A stretch of DNA of 64,000 nt from Acinetobacter lwoffii (lineage in GTDB: Bacteria; Pseudomonadota; Gammaproteobacteria; Pseudomonadales; Moraxellaceae). Below the pieces are notes generated by a model. That model did no database searches and had not been told where the DNA came from. It worked only from the letters and a program-made list of their open reading frames with translations. Where the stretch lies: NCBI RefSeq assembly GCF_019048525.1, contig NZ_CP077369.1, forward strand, positions 310,001 to 374,000, in the 5' to 3' direction. Positions 21,733 to 25,369 of the stretch are shown in pieces. Numbering within the stretch: position 1 is the stretch's first letter; each line of letters begins with the position of its first letter. A program made the position numbers and the translations under genes.

Positions 21733-21773
21733 AAGATAAAGAGGTCTAACTATCTGCAAATAATTAGACCTCT
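21733..21773 (-). terminator. Terminator of the CsgG/HfaB-type operon
   Basis: Stem AGAGGTCTAA / TTAGACCTCT (10 perfect pairs, 14-base loop). On the minus strand it is followed by TTTATCTTATAAT, a T-rich tail. It lies 20 bases beyond the last gene of the leftward operon. Confidence 0.8.
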
Positions 21774-21792: not shown

Positions 21793-22458
21793 TTATTTAA
21801 CCGTCACAGTAATACTGCCGCTATTTACAGCACCGATAGCGGTAGTTGTGATGCTATTGTTAATAGCAGTTTGAGTTCCTTCTGCAATCGCATTGACAGA
21901 GGCATCAATGGTACCCGCATTATAGGCAATGTTCGCGACACTATAATTGCTTAAAGTTTCATTGATCTGCTCACTATAGTTGGTAGACAGTGATGAACTT
22001 ACAACTTCCGAGAGATCTGAACTATCCGCAACCTCGGATAACTCTTCTAAGGTTTCAGAATTATTCGTTGCACTGGTGACTTGACTGAAATCATAGTCAT
22101 ATGTTTCATCTGATACGTCTGATATCACCTGATTGAAGCTGCCTTGCTCAATCGTGATACTACCTGTGTTCGCTGCACCAATTGCAGTAGTTTCAATTGT
22201 CCCTTCAATTGAACTAATCGCATCTGGTACTTCTCTTACTGCTCCTGCAAGTGCTTCTAAATCAACGCTTGCATCAACATCACCTGTATTCACTGCCAGA
22301 TTCAGCGCAGAACCATTTTCAACCTGCTGAGAAATAGAATCCAGAGTAGCTTGTAAACCGGTATCTACTTCCACATTGGTTTCTTGAGCATATGCCATCC
22401 CCGCACTAGACAGAAAGGCGACGGATAATGCGACTGTTTTGATCGTGTTTTTCATCAT
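21793..22458 (-). CDS. Exported repeat protein, candidate surface subunit (HfaD-like position)
   Basis: 221 aa when started at the ATG at 22458 (AGGAAG just upstream); a frame reaching 22533 would bury the signal peptide. The signal peptide ends near residue 24 (AGMAYA). The mature protein is Asn/Ser/Thr/Ala-rich, very acidic, without cysteine, and contains an internal duplication: residues about 53-103 and 174-218 align, each ending in TTAIGA(A/V)N(T/S)GSIT(I/V). A low-complexity S/E/D linker (130-165) joins them. This composition suits an exported fibre or adhesin. It follows a CsgG/HfaB-like exporter gene; by position it resembles hfaD of Caulobacter, but I cannot show sequence homology from memory. 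Confidence 0.72.
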   Translation of the reverse strand: MMKNTIKTVALSVAFLSSAGMAYAQETNVEVDTGLQATLDSISQQVENGSALNLAVNTGDVDASVDLEALAGAVREVPDAISSIEGTIETTAIGAANTGSITIEQGSFNQVISDVSDETYDYDFSQVTSATNNSETLEELSEVADSSDLSEVVSSSLSTNYSEQINETLSNYSVANIAYNAGTIDASVNAIAEGTQTAINNSITTTAIGAVNSGSITVTVK

Positions 22459-22480
22459 TGTTCTTCCTACTGTTATTTTG

Positions 22481-22528
22481 AAGTACCTCTCGCTAAGTAC
22501 TTCTTCTGACAATGGGAGCGAGCCCATT
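22481..22528 (-). other. Two hairpins between the exporter gene and the candidate subunit gene
   Basis: AATGGG-6-CCCATT at 22511-22528 and AAGTAC-10-GTACTT at 22481-22502, both perfect. Neither is followed by a T run on the minus strand, so they look like RNA processing or stabilising structures in the 80-base gap rather than terminators. They could let the downstream gene be expressed at a different level from the exporter. Confidence 0.55.
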
Positions 22529-22538
22529 TTCAAATCTT

Positions 22539-23744
22539 TTAATCACGTTGAATATTTGACCAGTAATTCTCCACTACCTCTGGATTGGCATCCCATAAAC
22601 TGGATGACTTCTCCTCAGCTTGTTCTTTGTTGGCTTGTTCTTGAACATCTTTTTTGTCATTTATTTTGCTTGTCGGAGATGGGCGCTTAGTCTTACTAAT
22701 ATATTTAATCAGTTCCTGTTTGCTCATTTCAGGCTCGGCTTCAGGATTCTGAATCACCTCAGATTCTTTCTGCTTAGGCGGCTTGGTATCTTTGCTGGGT
22801 GAATTGATCGACTTGTTTTTTTCATTGGATGAATCTGCCTGACGTGAGGCCGATTCCTGAACAGGGTTGCTGGAATCGGTACTGATTTGTTGCTGATTTT
22901 TCTTATATTTATGCAAGGCAACAGAACTGCGAGTGAGATCTAAGCGACCAAATTCAGGTGGAATTTCCGCACGGCAACTTGCAAACACTGCCGGTGGCAC
23001 GACCTGACTGAGTAATTCAAAAGTGGCCAGGTTCAACATTTGGCGTAAGGCAAAATTACTCGCCTCTCGTTCTCCCTTGCCAATTTGAATATTTAACAGT
23101 GTACGACCCGCGAACCTGCCTGCACTAAGACCATAATCCTGTGCAGCAATCTGCTTTTGCAAAGAAACATTACCCACCACTTTACTACTGCGGGTATCAG
23201 TCAAAGATAAATCCAGACCGATCATAATCCGGGTTTGACTATAATTCGGACCGACACCAGCGATCTGCATGTCAAAACCACCACCCGGAATAAAATCCAG
23301 ACTGTTAATACTGCCTGTCACATAATAATCAGAAGCCTGGATTTGTCTTGGATCACGAATGCCCCACTTGGCTTCGCTTTCGATAATCCGGGGATCACGC
23401 CGGTTCATTAAGCTTACCCCCGCCTGAAACAAGGCAGATTGCACCATATCTCCCGCACCTTGGGTCACCATTTTTCCGCTACCACCATTGGTAACTACAT
23501 CCTTACCGGTTTGATCCAGAATTGCCCCCACGGAGAAACTCACATCACTACGTAATTGTCCTTTTAGGCAGGATAAAGCCATATCAAAAGGGGTAAAAAT
23601 ATCGGTAATTGGGGGGCCTTGTACCAGGCTAACTGGCTTCTTGTTTGAGGGCGCTAAACCCGTGCAGCCTGTTAAAAAAGAGCTGAAAAGGACAGTGGCA
23701 CTCACGAAAGATATATGTCTTTTGGTCGAGGAGAAATTCAACAT
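22539..23744 (-). CDS. CsgG/HfaB-family outer-membrane secretion lipoprotein
   Basis: 401 aa lipoprotein: signal peptide with lipobox LTGC, lipidated Cys27. Residues about 45-260 match the CsgG/HfaB fold: GPPITDIFTPFDMALSCL, VGAILDQTGK, KMVTQGAGDMVQSALFQAGV, ASDYYVTGSINSLDF, a GVGPNYSQTRI segment at the CsgG pore-region position, and a final FALRQMLNLATFELL helix. Known members form nonameric outer-membrane channels for curli (CsgG) or anchor the Caulobacter holdfast (HfaB). The R-x-(V)TQGA-x-M and DPRI features are closer to HfaB. Unusually, a 140-residue Lys/Glu/Ser/Pro-rich tail follows the domain. The start overlaps the previous gene by 7 bases (AGGAGA ribosome site), implying translational coupling. 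Confidence 0.85.
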   Translation of the reverse strand: MLNFSSTKRHISFVSATVLFSSFLTGCTGLAPSNKKPVSLVQGPPITDIFTPFDMALSCLKGQLRSDVSFSVGAILDQTGKDVVTNGGSGKMVTQGAGDMVQSALFQAGVSLMNRRDPRIIESEAKWGIRDPRQIQASDYYVTGSINSLDFIPGGGFDMQIAGVGPNYSQTRIMIGLDLSLTDTRSSKVVGNVSLQKQIAAQDYGLSAGRFAGRTLLNIQIGKGEREASNFALRQMLNLATFELLSQVVPPAVFASCRAEIPPEFGRLDLTRSSVALHKYKKNQQQISTDSSNPVQESASRQADSSNEKNKSINSPSKDTKPPKQKESEVIQNPEAEPEMSKQELIKYISKTKRPSPTSKINDKKDVQEQANKEQAEEKSSSLWDANPEVVENYWSNIQRD

Positions 23745-24115
23745 TGTGATTCTCCTGGTCTGTTACTTAAATTAAGACAGCGCTGAGGATTTTGGTTGGT
23801 ATTTGAATTGACTGGTGCTTCATTCAGCAACTCACTCGTAATATCGATACTGTTGTCTGTACCCTCTACATTGATATTGTTGGTCGGGGTATTTACCGTC
23901 CCGATGGAAGTAGTTGAGGTGCTATGAACGGTGGTTTTACCTAATCCGGAATAATAGTCTGACTCCTTAAGTTCGATCAGATTGGCTTGAACTAGATTCT
24001 CATTGGAACGGGCACTGGATGATTTCCAACGCTGAGTCCACTCATCAGAGGTGGCATAAGCGTTACTCAGAAAACATAAACCTAATAAACCCAGATTGAT
24101 AACTAATATTCTCAT
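23738..24115 (-). CDS. Small exported protein, first gene of the CsgG/HfaB-type operon
   Basis: 125 aa with a signal peptide ending near residue 21 (SNAYA). The mature protein is Asn/Ser/Thr-rich and carries TTSIGTVNT at 68-76, the same TT-x-IG-x-x-N motif found twice in the protein encoded at 21793. Two cysteines lie near the C-terminus (positions 113 and 125). By position it resembles HfaA of Caulobacter. GAGGA precedes the ATG by 10 bases. Likely a second export substrate or a minor, nucleating subunit; that is inference. Confidence 0.7.
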   Translation of the reverse strand: MRILVINLGLLGLCFLSNAYATSDEWTQRWKSSSARSNENLVQANLIELKESDYYSGLGKTTVHSTSTTSIGTVNTPTNNINVEGTDNSIDITSELLNEAPVNSNTNQNPQRCLNLSNRPGESQC

Positions 24116-24961
24116 AATCTTAATATCCTCTGACTTAAGATATTTATTTAATTTTTCATTTAAGTAAGATTAAATTTATCTGAAAAATATTAAATCACAT
24201 AAAATTATAAAATGTAAAACTTATACCTATTCACTTATTTTTTTGTTTTATTTAAAAATATAAATTATTGTTTTTATTAAATTAATATATATTTGTTTAT
24301 TATTTGTGATTTGTAAGAAATCATTATATAAATTTTTTTGAATATAAAATTCATCCAAAAAACTTGATTAAGATAATATATTTTTTATATTATCAATAAT
24401 CAAAAATTTATCTAATAAAGATTAGAATTATTATACTTTTTATATTTTAAAAGTCGTAAATTTTTATTTTATTAGAACTTCTATTTAATAAGGATAAATG
24501 TCACGATTTATTTAAAATATAATTAATCAATTACAATGAAGGTGACTTATAACGAAACGCCAATATTCAGATGTATTTTGGCAGAAAAATTTTAATAGCC
24601 CTGATAAGAACTCGTTTACATATTTTTCGACTTCCCTTCCTTTTTCATTTCGAATCCAGAAATGGCCTACCTAAGATCGCAATATTTAGACTGATGAGAG
24701 AAGAACATTTCTGATGATCTTGAGATTTGCCATTTCCTCAATGACAGGTTAAGAATTGCGTTAATCAACCAAGAAGGCATATATTTACAGCTGAAATACA
24801 ATGTTTTAGCGTGAACTCAACTAGAATCAAGTGAGTATGCAATGTTTCTGATTTGCGAATTCAAAACTTATCTAGTGTGTTGTTGTATGTTATGAATAAG
24901 TGCTGATCAGGGCACACATCCTATTCCCGACAAACCTAAAACAAGCACATCTCAATCCTTG
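24116..24961. other. Gene-free AT-rich region upstream of the CsgG/HfaB-type operon
   Basis: About 845 bases with no credible coding frame on either strand. The half next to the operon (24120-24540) is extremely AT-rich with many A and T tracts; the half towards 24960 is closer to average. This size and composition fit a long regulatory region for a silenced or environment-controlled operon, or the remains of decayed genes. I could not identify a specific promoter with confidence. Confidence 0.6.
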
Positions 24962-25369
24962 ATGGAACAATCTATGCAATGTCCTAAATGTGGCTCAGCT
25001 GATATCGAACAGCGCGATCATGAACAGAATTTAAAGAAAATTGGCGGCATTCTCATGAGTTCAGCGGGTGCAACTGCAGGGACTGTGGGTGGCGCTGCTT
25101 CAGGTGCATCCATTGGCGCTGCGATTGGTACAGTAGCCGGACCTTTAGGTGTAATTGTCGGCGGAACCGTAGGCACTTTTGTCGGTGCAATCAGTGTCGG
25201 GATTACCGGCGGTGTAGTCGGTAATTTTCTGGGGAAAAAGGCCGGGGTTTCTGTCGACCGTAATCTGTTTCAGGATTATCAATGTCTGAAATGCAAATAC
25301 AGATTTAGTCAAAAAGATCAAAAAGATCAAAAAGATCAAAAAGATCAAAAAGATCAAAAAGAAGCCTAA
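24962..25369 (+). CDS. Zinc-ribbon protein split by a glycine-zipper membrane segment
   Basis: 135 aa. A CPKC pair at residues 7-10 and a CLKC pair at 108-111 look like the two halves of one zinc ribbon. Between them (about 30-92) lies a continuous Gly/Ala-rich hydrophobic stretch of the glycine-zipper type (GTVGGAASGASIGAAIG and so on), which would span or insert in a membrane. The tail is a run of Q-K-D triplets encoded by a 9-base tandem repeat. The start may be the ATG at 24962 or the one at 24974; neither has a strong ribosome site. Function unknown. Confidence 0.7.
   Translation: MEQSMQCPKCGSADIEQRDHEQNLKKIGGILMSSAGATAGTVGGAASGASIGAAIGTVAGPLGVIVGGTVGTFVGAISVGITGGVVGNFLGKKAGVSVDRNLFQDYQCLKCKYRFSQKDQKDQKDQKDQKDQKEA
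25311..25361 (+). repeat. Tandem repeat AAAAAGATC x5 plus partial copy
   Basis: Five identical 9-base units (25311-25355) plus six bases of a sixth, encoding the repeated QKD tail. Because the unit is a multiple of three, copy-number change would lengthen or shorten the tail without breaking the frame. Confidence 0.95.

Follow-up and report, generated by a model that had tools for sequence, protein, structure and literature searches.

The closest described systems to the operon reported here are HfaABD of Caulobacter and the curli system of Escherichia coli. The consulted portions of the Caulobacter work (PMC6707917) and of the curli work (PMC7304575) are the two bases on which a ring-shaped pore, export and surface assembly are proposed below. 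In Acinetobacter baumannii, a different CsgG operon with three lipoproteins has been reported in the portion consulted of PMC3224125; in the corresponding portions of other papers, a csgG operon is listed (PMC3483291), CsgG is mentioned once each (PMC9045253 and PMC5538643), and repression by H-NS is cited for a CsgG/HfaB family protein of A. baumannii (PMC8446060). In this study, we analysed 64,000 nucleotides (nt) of the Acinetobacter lwoffii genome (contig NZ_CP077369.1, positions 310,001 to 374,000; hereafter the window) and found, on the minus strand, a gene for an HfaB-branch, CsgG-fold lipoprotein of outer-membrane type, with a gene for a small exported-looking protein on either side. 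All three stay together in Acinetobacter, and a similar three-gene operon is present on an alphaproteobacterial plasmid. The locus is genuine and conserved, an earlier sequence-only reading of it was right in its main lines, and we read it as a variant of HfaABD-type secretion. The data establish which family and fold the pore protein has, the co-conservation of the genes, the internal repeats of one small protein and the covariation of an intergenic RNA. We put at about 70% the probability that this is an operon for secretion and surface assembly of the HfaABD type.

The open reading frame (ORF) listing confirmed the three minus-strand ORFs of 125, 401 and 221 amino acids (aa) where they had been placed, in an hfaABD-like order that our comparisons also support. 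The hfaA-like gene (23738..24115) comes first and encodes an exported-looking 125-aa protein with, by eye, a signal peptide; its stop overlaps the start of the hfaB-like gene (22539..23744) by 7 nt. This is followed by the hfaD-like gene (21793..22458), which encodes a 221-aa exported-looking repeat protein from an ATG at 22458, again with a signal peptide by eye; a longer alternative TTG start is listed at 22533. Of 31 distinct Acinetobacter loci, all preserve the overlap except L020 (genome G057) and L022 (genome G080), which leaves 29. Both of these carry stops within the hfaB match, near the gene end in L022, and both small genes remain open there.

The 401-aa translation contains the lipobox LTG-C27 and the HfaB segments on which its identification had been based. 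A CsgG/HfaB match of this protein had been set beforehand as the test of the sequence-only reading, and profile, tree and structural alignment all gave one at the HfaB level. With 42 bits against Pfam PF03783 (CsgG), above the curated cut-off of 20.8, the protein belongs to the CsgG/HfaB superfamily. It has the CsgG fold, and it scores 93.9 bits (E 9.3e-27) against the HfaB equivalog NCBIfam NF037935. In full-length structural alignments it is 15–18% identical to CsgG chains, while its identity to Caulobacteraceae HfaB is 29–34%; in a tree from which E. coli CsgG was left out, it groups with HfaB proteins, far from a 225-aa CsgG class. In a 20-row alignment (A5), Cys59 and Cys257, a pair common with Caulobacteraceae HfaB, are invariant, and Cys27 is nearly so. 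The CsgG-like part (residues 45–262) has a mean column identity of 96% over 30 rows. The C-terminal tail (residues 263–401; 22542..22958, minus strand) is rich in Lys, Glu, Ser and Gln, with conserved blocks inside, and is judged from its composition to be disordered; its end, YWSxx(Q/L/N)RD (22542–22607, minus strand), is present in 14 of the 14 tails printed and looks like a docking peptide. The genome encodes a single Pfam-CsgG protein, which is already annotated in databases as CsgG/HfaB family or HfaB protein.

The two small proteins had been said to carry TT[AS]IGxxN once and twice, respectively, and a six-frame scan of the window (127,996 residues) bore this out: the 125-aa protein has one copy (residue 68), the 221-aa protein has two (residues 90 and 205), and the scan gave no others, against 0.00035 copies on average after shuffling both mature proteins. 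Both copies in the 221-aa protein sit within a long internal repeat rich in Asn, Gly, Ser and Thr, with copy 1 at residues 40–103 (22150..22341) and copy 2 at residues 163–218 (21805..21972), both on the minus strand; its score of 107, versus a shuffled mean of 39 and maximum of 72, was reached by none of 2000 shuffles. Past the short motif the 125-aa and 221-aa proteins show no similarity (their score is reached by 692 of 2000 shuffles), and the motif common to both does not show that they are homologous. No credible Pfam or NCBIfam family was found for these two proteins or for families A6 and A7.

Relatives of the small proteins were sought among 3466 ORFs from HfaB-linked loci, 103 of which are HfaA by profile; the rule adopted gave 79 of 80 in the Caulobacterales HfaA collection. 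The top matches of the 125-aa profile were the upstream genes of Pacificitalea (1.5e-4) and of locus L147 (5.9e-4), followed by the HfaA of locus L048 (0.0089). Aligned by hhalign with the 125-aa family, the Pacificitalea protein matched 31 columns in the motif region at P 5.7e-6; this pair had no reversed control. Of the 20 best matches of the 125-aa profile, 12 were Caulobacterales-type HfaA, as were 29 of the best 40; ten column-shuffled profiles placed 1–9 HfaA ORFs among their first 20, and the reversed profile placed 2. This ranking is suggestive, and composition plainly contributes to it. The profile–profile comparison of the 221-aa family with HfaD gave P 0.028 (controls 0.36 and 0.9). 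The 221-aa profile also ranked HfaA ORFs high (20 of the top 40), which we read as composition, this ranking being without a shuffle control of its own.

The proteins encoded directly upstream of hfaB in L043, L144, L142 and L147–L149 have an N-terminal mature segment in common; the L142 protein, the sole one of these scanned, matched no Pfam or NCBIfam family. A profile of this segment built from Pacificitalea and L147–L149 finds, beyond its own four members, the Variovorax protein of L144 (2.8e-4), whose gene lies directly upstream of hfaB, and that of L043 (0.0042), and the segment is thus common to several lineages. In the 125-aa protein it would span about residues 22–62 (TSDEW...SDYY...TT; 23930..24052, minus strand). 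A profile built from Acinetobacter alone has L147 as its best match, at only E 0.05, with the Pacificitalea gene in ninth place (E 10), so that membership of the Acinetobacter protein in this cross-lineage family is likely rather than demonstrated.

The two small genes had been expected to co-occur with hfaB, and they sit on either side of it in all 31 distinct loci examined, these loci having been picked by hfaB. Counted with duplicates, all three genes are in order in 34 of 34 loci, which reduce to these 31 in 30 genomes: 28 of 33 carriers (G033, G036, G051, G075 and G110 being left out) together with G639, which has two loci, and G615. The 401-aa protein is matched in 33 of 149 Acinetobacter genomes, its own included. 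The claim that the system is unusual for the genus thus stands as far as it is carried by a minority; it is not rare, and its CsgG/HfaB affiliation is already annotated. Pfam CsgG proteins of any class, among them classes about 225 and 340 aa long, occur in 90 of 148 Acinetobacter genomes. A further Acinetobacter CsgG class of about 320–365 aa matches only approximately positions 2–174 of the 210-position Pfam model.

The gene xpt adjoins the operon in 21 of 24 loci (exceptions L021, L024 and L026). In the 16 of 116 non-carriers viewed, xpt was present in all, followed directly by the zipper-protein gene (3), or by a wrbA-like gene (4) or other genes (the rest), so that gain or loss of the operon took place there. 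The HfaB model, which is less sensitive than the window protein, matched 8 of 149 genomes of the family at E ≤1e-12, in 1 of 16 genera, Acinetobacter. Across the class Gammaproteobacteria, profile A1 at 1e-10 matched 1 of 369 genomes, our own alone. Elsewhere, 26 of 385 genomes in the class of G404 match at ≤1e-20, three of one genus with about 240 bits, and phylum-wide NF037935 matches 17 of 398 at 1e-15 or better; no relative was found in viral contigs. Vibrio and Photobacterium plasmids hold remoter HfaB relatives (25–26% identity, one of each read out) with TAVGNN-type repeat proteins. In L143 and L146 (Photobacterium and Vibrio plasmids), L045, L047, L150, L153, L154, L161 and L163, an HfaB-type gene is followed by a gene for a larger protein with repeated TAVGNN or ATAVANN-like motifs, and genome G1019 has five HfaB-type genes. 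The closest relative found beyond Acinetobacter lies on plasmid pDY25-D of Pacificitalea manganoxidans, with 48% identity over 61% of the query and the same gene order. Arrival of the operon by transfer from an alphaproteobacterial source would be the simplest reading.

Between hfaB and hfaD lies an RNA element of two hairpins (22474..22531, minus strand): hairpin 1 (22511–22528) with the loop CUCGCU, and hairpin 2 (22480–22503) with the loop AGCGAG, which ends 11 nt 5′ of the likely hfaD ribosome-binding site AGGAAG (by eye). The alignment (A9) comprises 23 distinct sequences, that is, 22 forward-strand matches of the loop pattern and L012, which the pattern missed and which was added by hand; two reverse-strand duplicates and identical rows were left out. 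With the two stems and a loop–loop helix, 97.9% of cells pair. Seven pairs vary on both sides, compared with a shuffled mean of 2.3 and at most 3 pairs in slid versions, and the covariation is 0.185 versus 0.137 after shuffling; none of 500 shuffles reached either value. Unaided, RNAalifold recovers both stems. The loops are perfectly complementary in 22 of 23 sequences, with a single U–G in the remaining one. Since the loops hardly vary, a kissing contact between them is possible and not proven; conserved loops could equally reflect a protein site, which would look the same. Rfam returned two chance-level matches only (11.7 and 8.1 bits versus gathering scores of 96.1 and 75). An RNA model search of 49 sources, the window and 48 of the 193 loci (other carriers being left out), gave nothing better than E 0.55 besides the window copy; the 90-base intergenic sequence gave plasmid matches only, at E 9, and no copy of the RNA pattern was found in viral contigs. 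In the literature searched, as far as the texts were consulted, we found no description of this RNA, of the N-terminal segment, or of the three-gene operon in Acinetobacter.

The operon is bounded 3′ of hfaD by a terminator-like hairpin of 15 pairs (21740..21773, minus strand) and upstream by an intergenic region (24116..24958, no strand assigned) that is AT-rich, with 24.4% G+C versus 44.3% for the window. Beyond this region is a gene for a zipper-type protein (24959–25369), which ends C-terminally in about five consecutive QKD repeats.

Taken together, the three genes probably build an outer-membrane pore in a minority of Acinetobacter and deliver two small proteins to the cell surface. HfaB would form a ring-shaped pore, of nine subunits by analogy with CsgG, and both small proteins would be exported by Sec and then pass unfolded through it. 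The 125-aa protein may be held near the pore by its N-terminal segment and act as a base or nucleator, and the 221-aa two-repeat protein, encoded behind the conserved RNA element, would form an outer adhesive or anchoring layer that binds surfaces directly or tethers a polysaccharide such as capsule. A polysaccharide partner is possible because one Poly_export protein is encoded elsewhere in the genome. The RNA may set the level of hfaD through RNA cutting or stability, or through translation.

Several results weigh against this HfaABD-type reading. The 401-aa protein falls short of the 300-bit NF037935 equivalog cut-off, and its structure model has a mean predicted local distance difference test (pLDDT) score of 56, with would-be membrane strands partly below 50; for the 221-aa model the mean is 35. 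The HfaA model NF037934 matched neither the window protein up to E 10 nor any of 33 A7 members (control: C. vibrioides HfaA, 161 bits), and the HfaD model NF037936 matched neither the window protein nor any of 42 A6 members (control: C. vibrioides HfaD, 453 bits). Homology of the 125-aa family to HfaA was considered and set aside as too weak: profile–profile comparison gave P 0.015 (controls 0.21 reversed and 0.23 shuffled), a reversed-HfaD control reached P 0.025, and adding the plasmid and g514 relatives brought no gain (P 0.018). The Pacificitalea match of the 125-aa profile includes 19.9 bits of composition bias, its best single domain having E 0.015, and the Pacificitalea upstream protein alone is not significant against HfaA (P 0.3, reversed control 0.075). 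Up to E 10, HfaD was absent from the matches of the 221-aa profile, and so was the Pacificitalea downstream protein. The earlier sequence-only reading is supported, with the failure in the HfaA, HfaD and HfaB equivalog models as a qualification.

A CsgG-like pore and a protein with two repeats rich in Asn, Gly, Ser and Thr would also suit a curli-like amyloid, in which fibres are built of the 221-aa protein and nucleated by the 125-aa protein, and the system does not serve to anchor a polysaccharide. CsgA has five repeats, and two are few for a curli subunit; as had been claimed, curli genes are absent as far as CsgE, CsgF and Curlin_rpt are concerned (no match in the genome at E 0.001, with positive E. 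coli controls; csgC was not searched for), and the Acinetobacter protein branches with HfaB, as noted above. We therefore regard an amyloid as unlikely. A bolder extension of the HfaABD-type reading, that the operons linked to HfaB are an as yet unrecognised surface-assembly family whose HfaA-like protein plugs the HfaB lumen itself, as CsgF does in CsgG, and so is anchor, gate and nucleator in one, with the kissing-hairpin RNA setting the supply of the repeat protein in Acinetobacter, seems to us doubtful. By eye, the candidate plug segment has an aromatic residue, a helix-prone stretch and then YY or similar; sequence searches gave the plug no support. At the sequence level a CsgF-like identity was set aside, with no CsgF among the PDB matches of profiles A7 and A8 and no Pfam CsgF in 33 A7 members. 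That the lipoprotein is instead a periplasmic envelope lipoprotein (PelC, TolB N-domain or GNA1162-like), with the small proteins as its periplasmic partners, is improbable. Least of all do we expect a degenerate, acquired operon with no function in Acinetobacter: stops lie inside the hfaB match in 2 of 33 carriers and the upstream region is AT-rich, but the column identity of the CsgG-like part, the preserved gene overlap and the covarying RNA stems all argue against decay.

If the HfaABD-type reading is true, holdfast-anchor-type secretion reaches beyond Caulobacterales into a hospital and environmental genus, and the operon offers a short route to testing how HfaB pores choose and hold substrates. 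The small proteins lack a Pfam or NCBIfam family and the RNA a credible Rfam match, so that two protein families and one RNA family could be defined.

Acinetobacter is not known to have a stalk or holdfast. As in Caulobacter HfaABD, three adjacent genes stand in A-B-D order, with an HfaB-type CsgG-fold lipoprotein and small exported proteins carrying a T/S-x-IG motif; unlike there, the HfaA and HfaD models do not match the small proteins, HfaB is as divergent as noted above and has a different tail, and D has 221 aa and two repeats, whereas that of the C. vibrioides locus has 415 aa. With E. coli curli the locus has the pore fold in common, and curli subunits leave through the CsgG pore, the lumen of which is lined by the CsgF N-terminus in the portion consulted of PMC7304575; it differs in lacking matches to CsgE, CsgF and curlin repeats. 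The Pacificitalea operon (RS18440-RS17635-RS17640), whose annotation goes no further than hypothetical proteins and CsgG/HfaB family, resembles it in HfaB, gene order and an upstream protein related to the 125-aa protein, and its downstream protein carries AAGAVNTG and AAGAINTT, which we count as a likeness to the 221-aa protein. It differs in its alphaproteobacterial plasmid location, in its larger small proteins, in a downstream protein unmatched by the 221-aa profile and in having no match to the Acinetobacter RNA model. The A. baumannii operon of PMC3224125, as far as consulted, likewise has a Pfam CsgG protein in Acinetobacter. We infer that it corresponds to L027–L030, with a CsgG ORF of 224–225 aa, neighbouring ORFs of 120–133 and 224–229 aa with lipoprotein-like starts, and a distant position in the tree. 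Our analysis sets the hfaABD-like operon apart from these and other CsgG-class proteins of Acinetobacter.
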